Shown here: in pieces, positions 958-4,727 of the stretch
Layout of the letters: each line of letters opens with the position of its first letter
How positions within the stretch are numbered: position 1 is the stretch's first letter
NCBI RefSeq assembly: GCF_000494755.1
Contig: NC_022657.1
Span: 6,912,001 to 6,976,000, forward strand
DNA: 64,000 nucleotides
Origin: Amorphoplanes friuliensis DSM 7358
GTDB taxonomy: Bacteria; Actinomycetota; Actinomycetes; Mycobacteriales; Micromonosporaceae
Reading direction: 5' to 3'
Notes under the pieces: model-generated
Database searches by the model: none
Told to the model about the DNA's origin: nothing
Seen by the model: the letters and a program-made list of their open reading frames with translations, nothing else
Position numbers and translations under genes: made by a program

Positions 958-2823
958 CTATCCCGCGGCCTTGTACGCCTTACCCGCCTCGGTCGGAGTC
1001 GACGAGTCCTTGTAGAGCCCGAAGTCGACGCTGTCACCCACGGCGGGCAGGCCGAACCAGGCGTACCGCTCGACGAACGAGCGCTTCTCCATGCCGGCCG
1101 TGGTGCCCTTGATGAACGCCGCTTCCTGGGCGCCCGTCGGGTACTTCGGCGAGCCGGTGAAGTTCATCAGGCCGTACTCGGTGACCCAGATCGGCAGGTC
1201 GTACTTCTTGTGCACCGCGTCGACGTAACCCAGGAACTGCCCGACCGCGGCGTCGCTGAAGTCGGAGCCGTACCAGTGCAGGGTGATGAAGTCGACGCGC
1301 AGGTTCTTCGCCTTGGCGCCCTTCATGAAGCGGTCGAGCCAGCCGCCGTCCGTGTCACCGCCGTACGCCACCGCCGGACTGCCCAGGCGCATCCCGGTGT
1401 CCTGGAGCTTCGGCCAGTCGGCGAGGGCGTCCTCGACGCTCATGTTCGCCTGCCCGCCCATGTCCGGCTCGTTGAAGCCGAGCAGCACGTCGCCCTCCTT
1501 CTTCGCCTTGGCGAAGGTGGCGGAGGTGACGTTCGCCTTGCCCCAGATCATCGGCACGAACTCGACGTCCGACGGGGCCGGCATGGAGTCGTTGTCCGGT
1601 GCCCAGTTGTAGTACCAACCGGCGCCGACGTCGTCGAGCGCGCCCTTGATCCCCGCGAACTGCCAGGTGCCGACGCCCTTCTTGGCCGAGGTCTCGGTCG
1701 GCGGCACGGGTACGACGGGCGCCTTGGTCTTCTTCTTGGTCGGTGACGGCTTCGCGGACGGTGACACCGAGGTTGCGCTCGGGGTCGGTGCCGGCAGGGA
1801 GAGCTTCGGGGCGGGTGCCGCCGTCGACACGACGGCCGCGTTGGCGGCCGGCTTGTCGTCGTTGGTGTAGACCACCGCAGCGGCGCCACCACCGGCCACG
1901 GCGCCCGTCGCCAGCATGGCGGTCAGCACGCGGCGGCCGACACCGACGCCGCCCTTGACCGCGATCTTGGCCGCCAGGGCCTTGCCGGAGACCGCGTGGG
2001 CAACGTGCGAACCCGCCGCGTGGGCCGCGGTGTGTGCCCCGCCGAGTGCGGCCAGGCCGCCACCGCCGAGGGAGTGCGGCAGCGGGACGAGGGCCATGCC
2101 GACCAGGAGTTTCTCGGCGGCGACCAGCCCTGACCAGGCCGGCGAGCACTGCCGGCAGTCGCGGGTGTGCCGGGCGATGCGCTTGCGCCAGAGCGCGCCG
2201 GGCCGCCCGTCCCAGTCGGCGGTGAGCAGGCCCAGATCGGCGCAGGGCGGCGAGGCGGCGAGCGCCCGGACGACCACCCGGGCGGTCTCCAGCTGGCCCT
2301 TCATGCGCTGGATGCGGACCGCGGCGTGCTGGCGGGTCACCTCGATCGCGGAGACGATCTCGTCGCGGGTGAGCTCACCGGAGGCCTCCAGCCACCAGAG
2401 CGAGAGCAGCTCGCGGTTGTCCTCGTCGAGCCAGCGGGTGGCCTCGGCGGTCTCGCGGCGCTGGCCGGCCAGCTCGAGGCGGGTGATCGCCAGATCGGTG
2501 AAATCGGCACCCGGGTCGCGGACGTCGTCGGGCAGCAGCGCGTCGGGTGAGGCCCGGCGGACGCGGTACCGCTCGCGCACCTGGCGCACGGTGATCGCCA
2601 CCAGCCAGGACCGGAACGCCTCGGGTTCACGCAGGTCACCTAGGTTGCGCAGCACCCGGAGCATGGTGTCCTGCACGACGTCGTCGACGTCGGCGTGCCC
2701 GTCCAGGGCCCGGCCGACGATCGTGTAGACGAGCGGCAGGTACCCCGCGACGAGGCGATCGACCGCGGCCGGGTCGCCGGCGCGGGCGGCGACGACCGTC
2801 GCGGTGTCCGGTTGAAACGCCAT
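958..2823 (-). CDS. ECF sigma factor fused to a zinc motif, TM helix and GH128-like glycosidase
   Basis: A 621-residue multidomain protein. Residues about 8-90 are sigma region 2 and about 105-185 region 4 (helix-turn-helix). HTRDCRQC near residues 219-226 fits the Hx3Cx2C zinc motif of ZAS-type anti-sigma domains. One membrane helix follows near 300-318, then a Pro/Ser/Thr/Lys-rich linker to about 385. Residues about 386-620 resemble an Asl1-like/GH128 glycosyl hydrolase, with GFNEPD (Glu452) and WVTEYG (Glu549) as likely acid/base and nucleophile. The predicted topology puts the sigma domains inside and the hydrolase outside. The ATG at 2823 has GGAGAGG ten bases upstream; an ATG 27 bp further up lacks an RBS. 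It is divergent from an anti-sigma kinase gene. Domain calls are by motif; regulation by proteolytic release is inference. Confidence 0.85.
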   Translation of the reverse strand: MAFQPDTATVVAARAGDPAAVDRLVAGYLPLVYTIVGRALDGHADVDDVVQDTMLRVLRNLGDLREPEAFRSWLVAITVRQVRERYRVRRASPDALLPDDVRDPGADFTDLAITRLELAGQRRETAEATRWLDEDNRELLSLWWLEASGELTRDEIVSAIEVTRQHAAVRIQRMKGQLETARVVVRALAASPPCADLGLLTADWDGRPGALWRKRIARHTRDCRQCSPAWSGLVAAEKLLVGMALVPLPHSLGGGGLAALGGAHTAAHAAGSHVAHAVSGKALAAKIAVKGGVGVGRRVLTAMLATGAVAGGGAAAVVYTNDDKPAANAAVVSTAAPAPKLSLPAPTPSATSVSPSAKPSPTKKKTKAPVVPVPPTETSAKKGVGTWQFAGIKGALDDVGAGWYYNWAPDNDSMPAPSDVEFVPMIWGKANVTSATFAKAKKEGDVLLGFNEPDMGGQANMSVEDALADWPKLQDTGMRLGSPAVAYGGDTDGGWLDRFMKGAKAKNLRVDFITLHWYGSDFSDAAVGQFLGYVDAVHKKYDLPIWVTEYGLMNFTGSPKYPTGAQEAAFIKGTTAGMEKRSFVERYAWFGLPAVGDSVDFGLYKDSSTPTEAGKAYKAAG

Positions 2824-3051
2824 GGGTGTCGTGACCTCTCCGTGGAGCATCGATCATTGCTCGCGTCCGGCCTTTTGCCGACCACGGATAGGGAGACGGA
2901 CCGAACGGCCTGCGATAACAAGAAGTTCGGACGGCCGGTTCCGGGACTCCTCAGCGCGTTCCGCACCACACCCGGGGTTAGCCCCGGCCCGCAGAGGGAA
3001 CACCAAGGCATCAGCACGGACGACATCAGCTTCGGAGGGGGGCAGGATCTC

Positions 3052-3468
3052 ATGCGCATCTCGTTGAAGCTCAATCTGCCCCGCGAGGTCGACAGCGTCC
3101 CTGCCGTACGCCGCCTGCTCCGCTGTGCGCTGGCGGTTTTCCACGTGCCCCGCCAGGACGGCGAGGACCTGGAGATCGCGCTGACCGAGGCCTGCGCCAA
3201 CGTCGTCAAGCACGCTTCCGGTGCCGACGCCATCGAGGTCAGCCTCGACGTCGGTGCGGACCGCTGCGCCATCGACGTGTCCGACAACGGGTCGGGCTTC
3301 GACGCCCTCGCGGTGGCCGAGCCGGACGAGACCGGTGAGCACGGGCGCGGGCTGTTCCTGATCAAGGCCCTGAGCGACAACGTCCGGATGCAGTCGACCC
3401 CGCGCAACGGGAGCCTCATCCACTTCGAGAAGACGTTCGCACTGGCCGGAGGCCCCGGCTCACTCTGA
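3052..3468 (+). CDS. RsbW-like anti-sigma factor / ATP-binding protein
   Basis: A 138-residue stand-alone GHKL (HATPase_c) domain of the kind that binds and inhibits sigma factors and phosphorylates anti-anti-sigma proteins. Visible boxes are the N-box EALTEACANVVKHA-type stretch (about 41-54), G1 DNGSGFD (78-84) and G2 GEHGRGLFLIKAL (95-107). Start ATG is preceded by GGAGGGGGGCAGG. It lies 119 bp before a SpoIIE-type phosphatase on the same strand, the usual kinase/phosphatase opposition of a partner-switching module. No STAS-domain antagonist is present nearby, so the regulated sigma factor is unknown. The divergent ECF fusion gene is a neighbour but ECF factors are not normally RsbW clients. 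Confidence 0.88.
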   Translation: MRISLKLNLPREVDSVPAVRRLLRCALAVFHVPRQDGEDLEIALTEACANVVKHASGADAIEVSLDVGADRCAIDVSDNGSGFDALAVAEPDETGEHGRGLFLIKALSDNVRMQSTPRNGSLIHFEKTFALAGGPGSL

Positions 3469-3587
3469 GTCGTCATCACCCCCGGGGCACCTCGCTGCCC
3501 CTCACCGCGCTGAGACGCGCCCACCCCTATCATTCTTGCCGTACAGCAAATATTGCCGTACGACCAATGCCGGAGGGAGACCCGACC

Positions 3588-4727
3588 TTGTCCGACCGTC
3601 CGACGCCAGTCGGCGCGCTGCTGCGCGCGGCGCCGCCCGATCGGCTTCCCGAGGTGGTGGCGGACCATCTGCGCCGGCACTATGCCGCGGGCCGGACCGA
3701 GGTGCTGCTCGGTGACCTCATGCTCTCCAGCCTGTGGCCCGTGCTGGACCGCGACGGGCCCTCCGGCAACACCCTCGCGCTGCGCTGCTTCGGCAGCCAG
3801 CGGCCCGTCGTGGACATCGCCCACGACGCCAACCGGGTCTATCTGCCCTTGACCGCGTGGGGCGAACGCCTCGGCGTCCTGGTCGTGCAGACCACTCTGC
3901 CGTCCGGCACGGGACTGACCGACGAGTTGTCCGTGATCGCGGACGAGTTCGCCGTCGCCCTGCGCGCCGCCGACGTCGTCACCGACCGGTACAGGCAGGT
4001 CACGCGGCGCGAGCGCCTCACCATGGCGGCCGAGCTGCAATGGGAGATGCTCCCGGGCCGCTCACTGGGCGACGACCGCTTCCTGGTCGCCGGTCAGCTG
4101 CAGCCCGCGTACGCCGTGTTCGGCGACCACTACGACTGGTCGCTGATCGGTGACCGGCTGACGCTGACCGTGCTCAACGGTCACGGCGACGGTCTCGACG
4201 CCGCGGTGCTGACCACCGTGGCGGTCAACGCCATGCGGAACGCCCGCCGCTCCGGTGCCAACATCGTCGAGCAGGCCGAGCTCGCCTCCGACGCCCTCTA
4301 CTCCCGGTACGGCGGAGCCGCGCACGCCGCCACCCTGCTGCTCGAGATCGACCTGGTCGGCGGCCGGGTCGAGGCCGTGGACGCCGGCTCGCCGCGGGCC
4401 GTGCTGGCCCGCGAACGCGAGATCCGGCCGGTGACCCTGGAACAGCAGCTGCCGCTGGGCATGTTCGGCGAGACGCGGTACGAGACGCAGCGCTTCCTGC
4501 TCGAACCGGCCGACCGGCTGCTGGTGGTGAGCGACGGCGTGCACGCGGCGTCACCCGGCGGCCGGGCTCCCTACGGTGAATCTGCCCTGTTGACTGCTTT
4601 GCGCCGGACGCGCCTGCAGCCCGCCACCGAGGCAGTCGGTACGGTGATGCGTGGCCTCCGCGAATATCACGCCGGCACCGAACCGGAGGACGACGCCGTC
4701 ACCGTGTGCCTCGACTGGCGGCGATGA
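3588..4727 (+). CDS. SpoIIE/RsbU-type PP2C phosphatase with N-terminal GAF-like domain
   Basis: Predicted Ser/Thr phosphatase that would dephosphorylate an anti-anti-sigma factor. The first ~140 residues resemble a degenerate GAF sensor; a short helix linker (RERLTMAAELQWEMLPG) leads to the PP2C_SIG domain. Metal-site motifs are FGDHYD, SDG and DDAVTV. In the second Asp motif (DV-G-G-x-x-AA in the family) the sequence reads NGHGDGLDAA, so the usual Asp is Asn (about residue 197), which may alter activity. The TTG at 3588 has GGAGGGA 9 nt upstream; an ATG at 3567 would put that RBS inside the gene. Downstream of the RsbW-like gene. Confidence 0.82.
   Translation: MSDRPTPVGALLRAAPPDRLPEVVADHLRRHYAAGRTEVLLGDLMLSSLWPVLDRDGPSGNTLALRCFGSQRPVVDIAHDANRVYLPLTAWGERLGVLVVQTTLPSGTGLTDELSVIADEFAVALRAADVVTDRYRQVTRRERLTMAAELQWEMLPGRSLGDDRFLVAGQLQPAYAVFGDHYDWSLIGDRLTLTVLNGHGDGLDAAVLTTVAVNAMRNARRSGANIVEQAELASDALYSRYGGAAHAATLLLEIDLVGGRVEAVDAGSPRAVLAREREIRPVTLEQQLPLGMFGETRYETQRFLLEPADRLLVVSDGVHAASPGGRAPYGESALLTALRRTRLQPATEAVGTVMRGLREYHAGTEPEDDAVTVCLDWRR

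Follow-up and report, generated by a model that had tools for sequence, protein, structure and literature searches.

A single reading frame in a 64,000-nucleotide stretch of Amorphoplanes friuliensis DSM 7358 DNA (the window) joins an ECF sigma factor to a glycosidase domain, which raises the question of what such a protein would sense and which genes it would control. An earlier note on this DNA had suggested that it ties glycan sensing to a sigma factor, and had called its function open.

One reading frame for a sigma factor and a glycosidase

The frame at 958-2823 on the minus strand is single and uninterrupted and encodes 621 aa from ATG 2823. An alternative start at ATG 2850 would give 630 aa; the GGAGAGG run sits before 2823. 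The features of the gene and its product are as follows:

958..2823, minus: coding sequence with stop, 621 aa, running from ECF sigma through anti-sigma-like segment, membrane segment and linker to GH128 (ORF reading and Pfam)
2257..2808, minus: ECF sigma regions 2 and 4, residues 6-189 (Pfam, TIGR02937, family profile, AlphaFold, Foldseek)
2101..2241, minus: anti-sigma (ZAS)-like helical segment, residues 195-241 (AlphaFold helices and HX3CX2C)
2146..2169, minus: HX3CX2C motif HTRDCRQC, residues 219-226 (sequence and homologue conservation)
1864..1929, minus: putative transmembrane segment, residues 299-320 (hydropathy and charge bias; weak in the window sequence alone)
1684..1863, minus: Pro/Thr/Ser/Ala-rich linker, residues 321-380 (composition, homologue conservation)
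961..1683, minus: GH128 subgroup I-like domain, residues 381-621 (Pfam, 6uaq alignment, Foldseek)
1468..1470, minus: codon of E452 (NEPD), counterpart of AmGH128_I E102 (alignment to 6uaq)
1177..1179, minus: codon of E549 (TEYG), counterpart of AmGH128_I E199 (opposite the mutant Q in the alignment to the E199Q chain)
2835..2841, minus: ribosome-binding-site-like GGAGAGG ahead of ATG 2823 (sequence)

The earlier note had read this frame as one polypeptide with ECF sigma regions 2 and 4, and the domain-by-domain profile searches that it proposed agree. The sigma part matched Pfam Sigma70_r2 (3.4e-13), the whole-sigma model TIGR02937 spans residues 20-180, and a four-sequence family profile aligns across both regions of CnrH, SigE/RpoE and SigH. 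At E ≤ 1, Pfam returned no separate region-4 match and no zinc-finger family, and its only matches to the window protein were Sigma70_r2, Glyco_hydro_cc and a weak Glyco_hydro_39. In the AlphaFold model (mean pLDDT 67), sigma helices occupy residues 7-189, four more helices at 195-241 surround HX3CX2C, and the enzyme domain begins at residue 382. Further down the Foldseek list for the sigma part stood two sigma/anti-sigma complexes, CnrH/CnrY (E 3.7e-4) and SigW/RsiW (E 7.5e-4). The HX3CX2C motif was likewise correctly seen; it is kept in 120/120 listed homologues and in each of the 112 frames extracted, of which 111 are distinct, and may bind zinc.

A search with the sigma part listed 120 proteins, comprising 119 sigma-GH128 fusions, whose names as shown were mostly Actinoplanes and kin, and one fragment; homologue P0062, which stops before GH128, was dropped from the 120. 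Because 119 of the 120 have the same fusion in their precomputed Pfam domains (the window protein included), the two halves are not the product of a stop or frame error, a possibility that the earlier note had raised. Conservation among the listed homologues is 0.92 in the sigma part, 0.80 in GH128 and 0.50 in the linker. The fused frame is real and intact.

The earlier note's GH128-like domain with two candidate Glu residues also held. The domain matched PF11790 (4.6e-51) and 6uaq (1.1e-86), and its top Foldseek match was AmGH128_I (TMt 0.92, 56% identity in the structural alignment), an endo-β-1,3-glucanase with the same fold and both Glu residues. The spacing from E452 to E549 is 97 residues, equal to that of E102 and E199 in AmGH128_I. 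NEPD is conserved in 119/119 homologues and the second Glu in 99%, and both motifs occur in 40/40 GH128-class loci. The solved AmGH128_I chain is a free catalytic domain, whereas the window GH128 is fused to a sigma factor. By fold and by its two catalytic Glu residues the domain belongs to GH128 subgroup I, with predicted endo-β-1,3-glucanase activity.

The predicted promoter and its candidate regulon

Conserved upstream blocks and motif scans point to a promoter at the sigma gene:

2892..2919, minus: predicted autoregulated ECF promoter, -35 GTTATC at 2914-2919, -10 GTCTCC at 2892-2897, spacer 16

This GTTATC-N16-GTCTCC element ends 68 bp ahead of the sigma start codon. In an alignment of genus loci, TGTTATC and GTCT-CCC blocks were common to at least 12 of 14 upstream regions amid diverged sequence, and a dyad count across 111 upstream regions placed GTTAT-N17-GTCT among the leading pairs, with 30 cases versus at most 5 in one shuffle. 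The strict form GTTAT-N15-18-CGTC preceded 28/40 GH128-class sigma genes versus 1/71 others, that one being of the CAP class. In named organisms, 23/25 GH128-class loci had a looser form; their genomes overlap in part with those of the strict count.

We infer that the window sigma itself reads this promoter. The element might instead belong to another sigma factor or activator that governs the whole set, fused sigma gene included, with the fused sigma having a different regulon; its looser form also precedes 25/41 CAP-ectodomain sigma genes and so is independent of GH128. We consider this improbable, as the element accompanies the window sigma clade in the genomes compared, its strict form is missing before CBM42-class (0/28) and beta-helix-class (0/20) sigma genes, and, of nine divergent GH128-class genes inspected, at least five (these five from a single subclade) have GTAAT as their -35 box.

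The adjoining genes are not those of glycan use. Divergent HATPase_c_2 (RsbW-like) and SpoIIE phosphatase genes (window 3052-3468 and 3567-4727, plus strand) lie upstream of the sigma gene, with HATPase in 13/14 and SpoIIE in 12/14 genus loci. An F420-dependent LLM-type enzyme gene, named by eye, occupies 1-948 on the minus strand and starts about 10 bp past the sigma gene; as such a gene lies downstream in 14/14 genus loci, it is possibly co-transcribed. Among the families listed (25 of 32) for 42 ORFs next to GH128-class genes outside the genus there was no β-glucanase and no GH62, GH10, GH43 or arabinofuranosidase B; four CBM20/alpha-amylase matches and one DUF1996 did occur. We rejected a local operon logic for the GH128 class, since the neighbours conserved in the genus are HATPase, SpoIIE and the F420-dependent enzyme.

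Genome scans led to other candidate targets. In its own genome, GTTAT-N16-18-GTCTCC occurs seven times (reversed control, 0). Five of these sites precede the sigma gene, a GH16 gene that also encodes a ricin-type domain, and genes for F5/8C, SARP and antiporter proteins (the last with GTTATG, probably chance); the other two have no clear gene. The relaxed GTTATY/GTCYCC pattern added no further site in this genome, where a TGTTAT-CGTC site likewise lacks a clear gene. The nearest solved chains to the GH16 target are 3atg (glucanase) and 2hyk (β-1,3-glucanase), and the genome has only nine PF00722 matches. At 3.096 Mb it also encodes a ricin-lectin GH128 enzyme of secreted type (locus L002, 859-2166; names partly by eye), whose domain is 69% identical to the sigma-fused GH128. 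This paralogue was rejected as a regulon target, having no promoter site in strict scans of the own genome.

Across 40 genomes of the genus, GTTATC-N15-17-GTCTCC occurs 105 times (reversed-pattern control, 3), counts that are not independent events because the genomes are related. Seventy-six sites lie before five families: sigma 33, BTAD/SARP 17, GH16-cluster 16, DUF1996 9 and GH64 β-1,3-glucanase 1. The other 29 have no target-family gene. We examined 100 of the 105, the remaining five being sigma-gene promoters taken from earlier loci; 28 of these 100 were sigma-gene sites, 27 assigned by script and one (L187) by reading. The GH16-cluster sites comprise 14 with a GH16 match and two with F5/8C matches only (one cut by the locus end), and the GH64 gene, in genome G173, is divergent to the sigma gene. 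None of the seven spacer-15 sites belongs to the four large families, and a spacer-shifted control with half-sites 20-22 apart gave 15 sites, nine with an ORF and none in the target families. Seven of the 40 genomes lack a strict site at the sigma gene: G056 is without such a gene, a CGTCCCC variant is present in G153, G167 and G179, the stretch printed for G168 contains no site, and G157 and G173 were left unassigned by the script.

Two features of these targets were recorded by eye. The palindrome GGTTCCGGAACC lies in the spacer of 11/16 GH16-cluster promoters (for example, L129 1792-1820) and, placed between the two boxes, might serve as an operator for a repressor. The DUF1996 proteins with the same promoter also have a hydrophobic N-terminal segment (L136, L137, L151, L156, L157, L165, L183, L200 and L212). 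The one member tried, L136, had no solved relative at E ≤ 1. In the record labelled Nocardia sp. NRRL S-836, a GH128-class sigma gene starts no more than about 2.2 kb from a DUF1996 gene. From signal-like N-termini judged by eye, we infer that the target proteins are secreted.

In other genera, 12/12 chosen genomes with a GH128-class gene have the site at that gene; these were picked mostly after the motif had been seen there, with the GTTATT and GTAAT subclades left out. Among 12 genomes in which no GH128-class gene was seen, nine had no site and three had one each, with no recognisable target gene. A tally of sites lying inside genes is left aside here, since open frames extend upstream of true starts. 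In another genus, a membrane protein of 182-183 residues shares the element in 4/5 genomes (L261, L268, L269 and L271). Because the genomes sampled from other genera have the site mainly in its autoregulatory place, evidence for the glucanase regulon is confined to the genus of the window.

The recurrence of the sigma-gene element before GH16 and GH64 β-1,3-glucanases, the substrate class of GH128, gives independent support to the link between glycan sensing and the sigma factor that the earlier note had drawn, and suggests that the function it left open can be narrowed to a β-1,3-glucan response.

Ectodomain classes on a common chassis

The same chassis was found in at least 80 of 150 family genomes, with up to seven matches per genome at E ≤ 1e-30 among the matches listed; at most 17 candidates were scored per genome, and the family and genus searches are samples. 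Among 111 distinct proteins, Pfam detected the ectodomains GH128 (40), AbfB/CBM42 (28), beta-helix families (about 20), CAP (5) and Lcl_C (3), and found pectate lyase, ricin lectin and DUF4185 once each. Left out were L001 (a copy of L006) and L002 and L114 (no chassis match). The 80 loci of named organisms included six without a readable ectodomain and six more fitting no class. Further ectodomain classes are visible on the same chassis (L037, L039, L046, L047 and L059; L032 and L042; L057 and L073); those of L042 and L046, each scanned alone, had no Pfam match at E ≤ 0.01. A Streptantibioticus query listed 120 relatives, of which 112 carry CAP; in the other eight, several of them partial records, only the sigma domain shows.

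On the sigma-part tree, ectodomain class changes 16 times, compared with a least possible 14 and a shuffled mean of 61.6. Class labels follow the sigma tree, and we rejected frequent shuffling that spreads one ectodomain. The ectodomains vary yet stay stably paired with their own sigma clade.

CBM42 binds arabinofuranose. Besides the GH128 protein, the window genome encodes two further chassis proteins, a CBM42 pair in near-tandem at 3.21 Mb that adjoins GH62, GH43 and GH10 genes. At this locus (L126, own genome 3207500-3221500), an RCC1-like repeat gene, identified by eye, lies between the two CBM42 sigma genes, and the nearby GH62, GH43 and GH10 each have a CBM2. Neighbours were scanned for the CBM42 and GH128 classes, with the 40 beta-helix neighbours outside the scan; ORFs were hand-picked (44 of 62 for CBM42; 42 of 94 for GH128, minus genus loci and shorter ORFs). 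The 44 CBM42-class ORFs, one of them from the own genome, gave four GH62, four GH10, four GH43 and one arabinofuranosidase B catalytic domain. Ectodomain and predicted substrate agree twice, GH128 with GH16/GH64 β-1,3-glucanases and CBM42 with GH62, GH43 and GH10. The CBM42 paralogues beside arabinoxylan enzymes also favour the glycan sensing that had been suggested.

Catalytic residues that are intact in 40/40 GH128-class members, and genus neighbours that are not glycan genes, would also suit a GH128 that serves mostly as an enzyme at the cell surface or as a tether to the wall, with the sigma factor answering another signal, such as envelope damage, and the glucanase link being secondary. 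We judge this no more probable than control by another regulator, as the target genes share the ectodomain's substrate, ectodomain type is stable within sigma clades and the CBM42 class has matching neighbour genes.

GH128 is predicted to lie outside the cell. The earlier note had proposed a single membrane helix. In the window protein this is weak: the best 19-residue hydropathy, 1.67, was matched by 165/1000 shuffles of the same stretch, and AlphaFold gives residues 241-370 a pLDDT below 50 and no helix. Across the family, however, the segment holds, with 106/111 relatives reaching a hydropathy of 1.6 and 111/111 exceeding their own shuffled mean. Net charge is higher before the segment than after it in 98/111 relatives and equal in eight, a bias that predicts an outside C-terminus. 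A two-helix topology, in which a second helix, formed by the hydrophobic stretch downstream of HX3CX2C, crosses the membrane and leaves GH128 in the cytoplasm, could draw on a hydrophobic peak about 20 residues past the motif in many relatives and on passages of PMC8999054 that mention one to two helices, but it seems very unlikely given the Glu and Lys and the lower score (1.44) of this stretch in the window protein, the inside-to-outside bias at the later segment in those 98 relatives, and the extracellular polymer on which GH128-type enzymes would work.

A putative β-1,3-glucan receptor and its known relatives

Together, these data, all of them computational, point to the window protein as a putative ECF53-type, one-polypeptide transmembrane β-1,3-glucan sensor that is autoregulated and would control β-1,3-glucanases, a reading to which we give a probability of roughly 0.7. 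The fused anti-sigma-like segment would keep the N-terminal ECF sigma inactive at the membrane while the outward GH128 engages β-1,3-glucan, probably of the fungal wall, curdlan or laminarin type. Engagement would lead to removal of the outer part, probably through successive proteolytic cuts, the last by a site-2 protease. The own genome has four PF02163 matches in three genes as candidates for this step; such matches occur in all 14 control genomes too and lend it weak support. The freed sigma would then transcribe its own gene, a positive feedback, and through GTTATC-N16/17-GTCTCC a small regulon of GH16 and GH64 β-1,3-glucanases, a SARP regulator and DUF1996 proteins.

Neither the fused architecture nor the proteolysis idea is new. 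As the earlier note had remarked for C-terminal ECF extensions in principle, membrane-anchored extensions with glycosidase or carbohydrate-binding domains are in print for ECF52 and ECF53 sigma factors (PMC8999054, PMC10766802, PMC5826349), and proteolytic sigma release, which the earlier note had suggested for the window protein, has been proposed for them (PMC8999054, PMC5826349). In passages of these sources, ECF52 and ECF53 proteins (e.g. SCO4117, ECF52) have an ECF sigma, a proline-rich linker and an outside glycosidase or carbohydrate-binding domain, as predicted for the window protein, and a zinc-finger-type segment and a membrane helix, to which its HX3CX2C segment and putative helix would correspond. 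Likened by described features, the window protein has the regions 2 and 4 and the large glycosidase extension of ECF53; for the zinc-finger feature it offers HX3CX2C and the sigma/anti-sigma complex matches, yet no Pfam zinc-finger match at E ≤ 1, and for the one or two membrane helices of ECF53 a signal that the family supports but that is weak in this protein. SCO4117 differs in carrying a carbohydrate-binding module (smart00776) and is described as controlling development, whereas the window protein has GH128. A review describes the glycosidase-bearing ECF52/53 proteins as computational predictions without experimental validation (PMC10766802).

In the favoured reading the window protein would function in the manner of clostridial SigI/RsgI, one of two known systems that bear on the mechanism. 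In passages on Clostridium thermocellum SigI/RsgI, polysaccharide-binding, GH10 or CBM42 ectodomains sit on a membrane anti-sigma, with autoregulation and a matching-enzyme regulon (PMC4711584), and RseP and ClpXP steps are described (PMC12203970). In that system two separate proteins, of another family, act as sigma and anti-sigma; the window protein is one polypeptide with an ECF sigma, is accompanied by no separate membrane anti-sigma in this scheme, and has no RsgI N-terminal domain (Pfam, E ≤ 1). The GH10 of RsgI6 is described as having very low activity, whereas the window GH128 retains its catalytic residues and may be active. IutY (ECF243) of Pseudomonas putida is a sigma fused to a membrane anti-sigma and freed by Prc and RseP; it responds to the siderophore aerobactin, and the passages on it mention no glycosidase (PMC8999054). 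If ClpXP acted as on RsgI, it would have to halt before the sigma; otherwise membrane release alone would suffice, as with IutY.

The new part is the evidence for a GTTATC-N16-GTCTCC regulon, from which ligand and regulon are proposed here. We found no report of a GH128-sigma regulon in the open-access literature, as far as its available passages go; those on ECF53 give neither regulon nor ligand for the GH128 form, and neither promoter box was found in those of PMC9205884.

More broadly, and with the chances in our judgement evenly balanced, the chassis may represent a family of single-protein polysaccharide receptors in Actinobacteria, each sigma clade with its own ectodomain, promoter code and matching-sugar enzyme regulon; the window protein would be the β-1,3-glucan receptor of Actinoplanes-type bacteria, and DUF1996, here linked to the β-1,3-glucan response, would be part of β-1,3-glucan use. 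Naming a promoter element, its target genes and a probable ligand makes the ECF52/53 prediction directly testable, and the ectodomains offer a way to infer the ligands of other family members.
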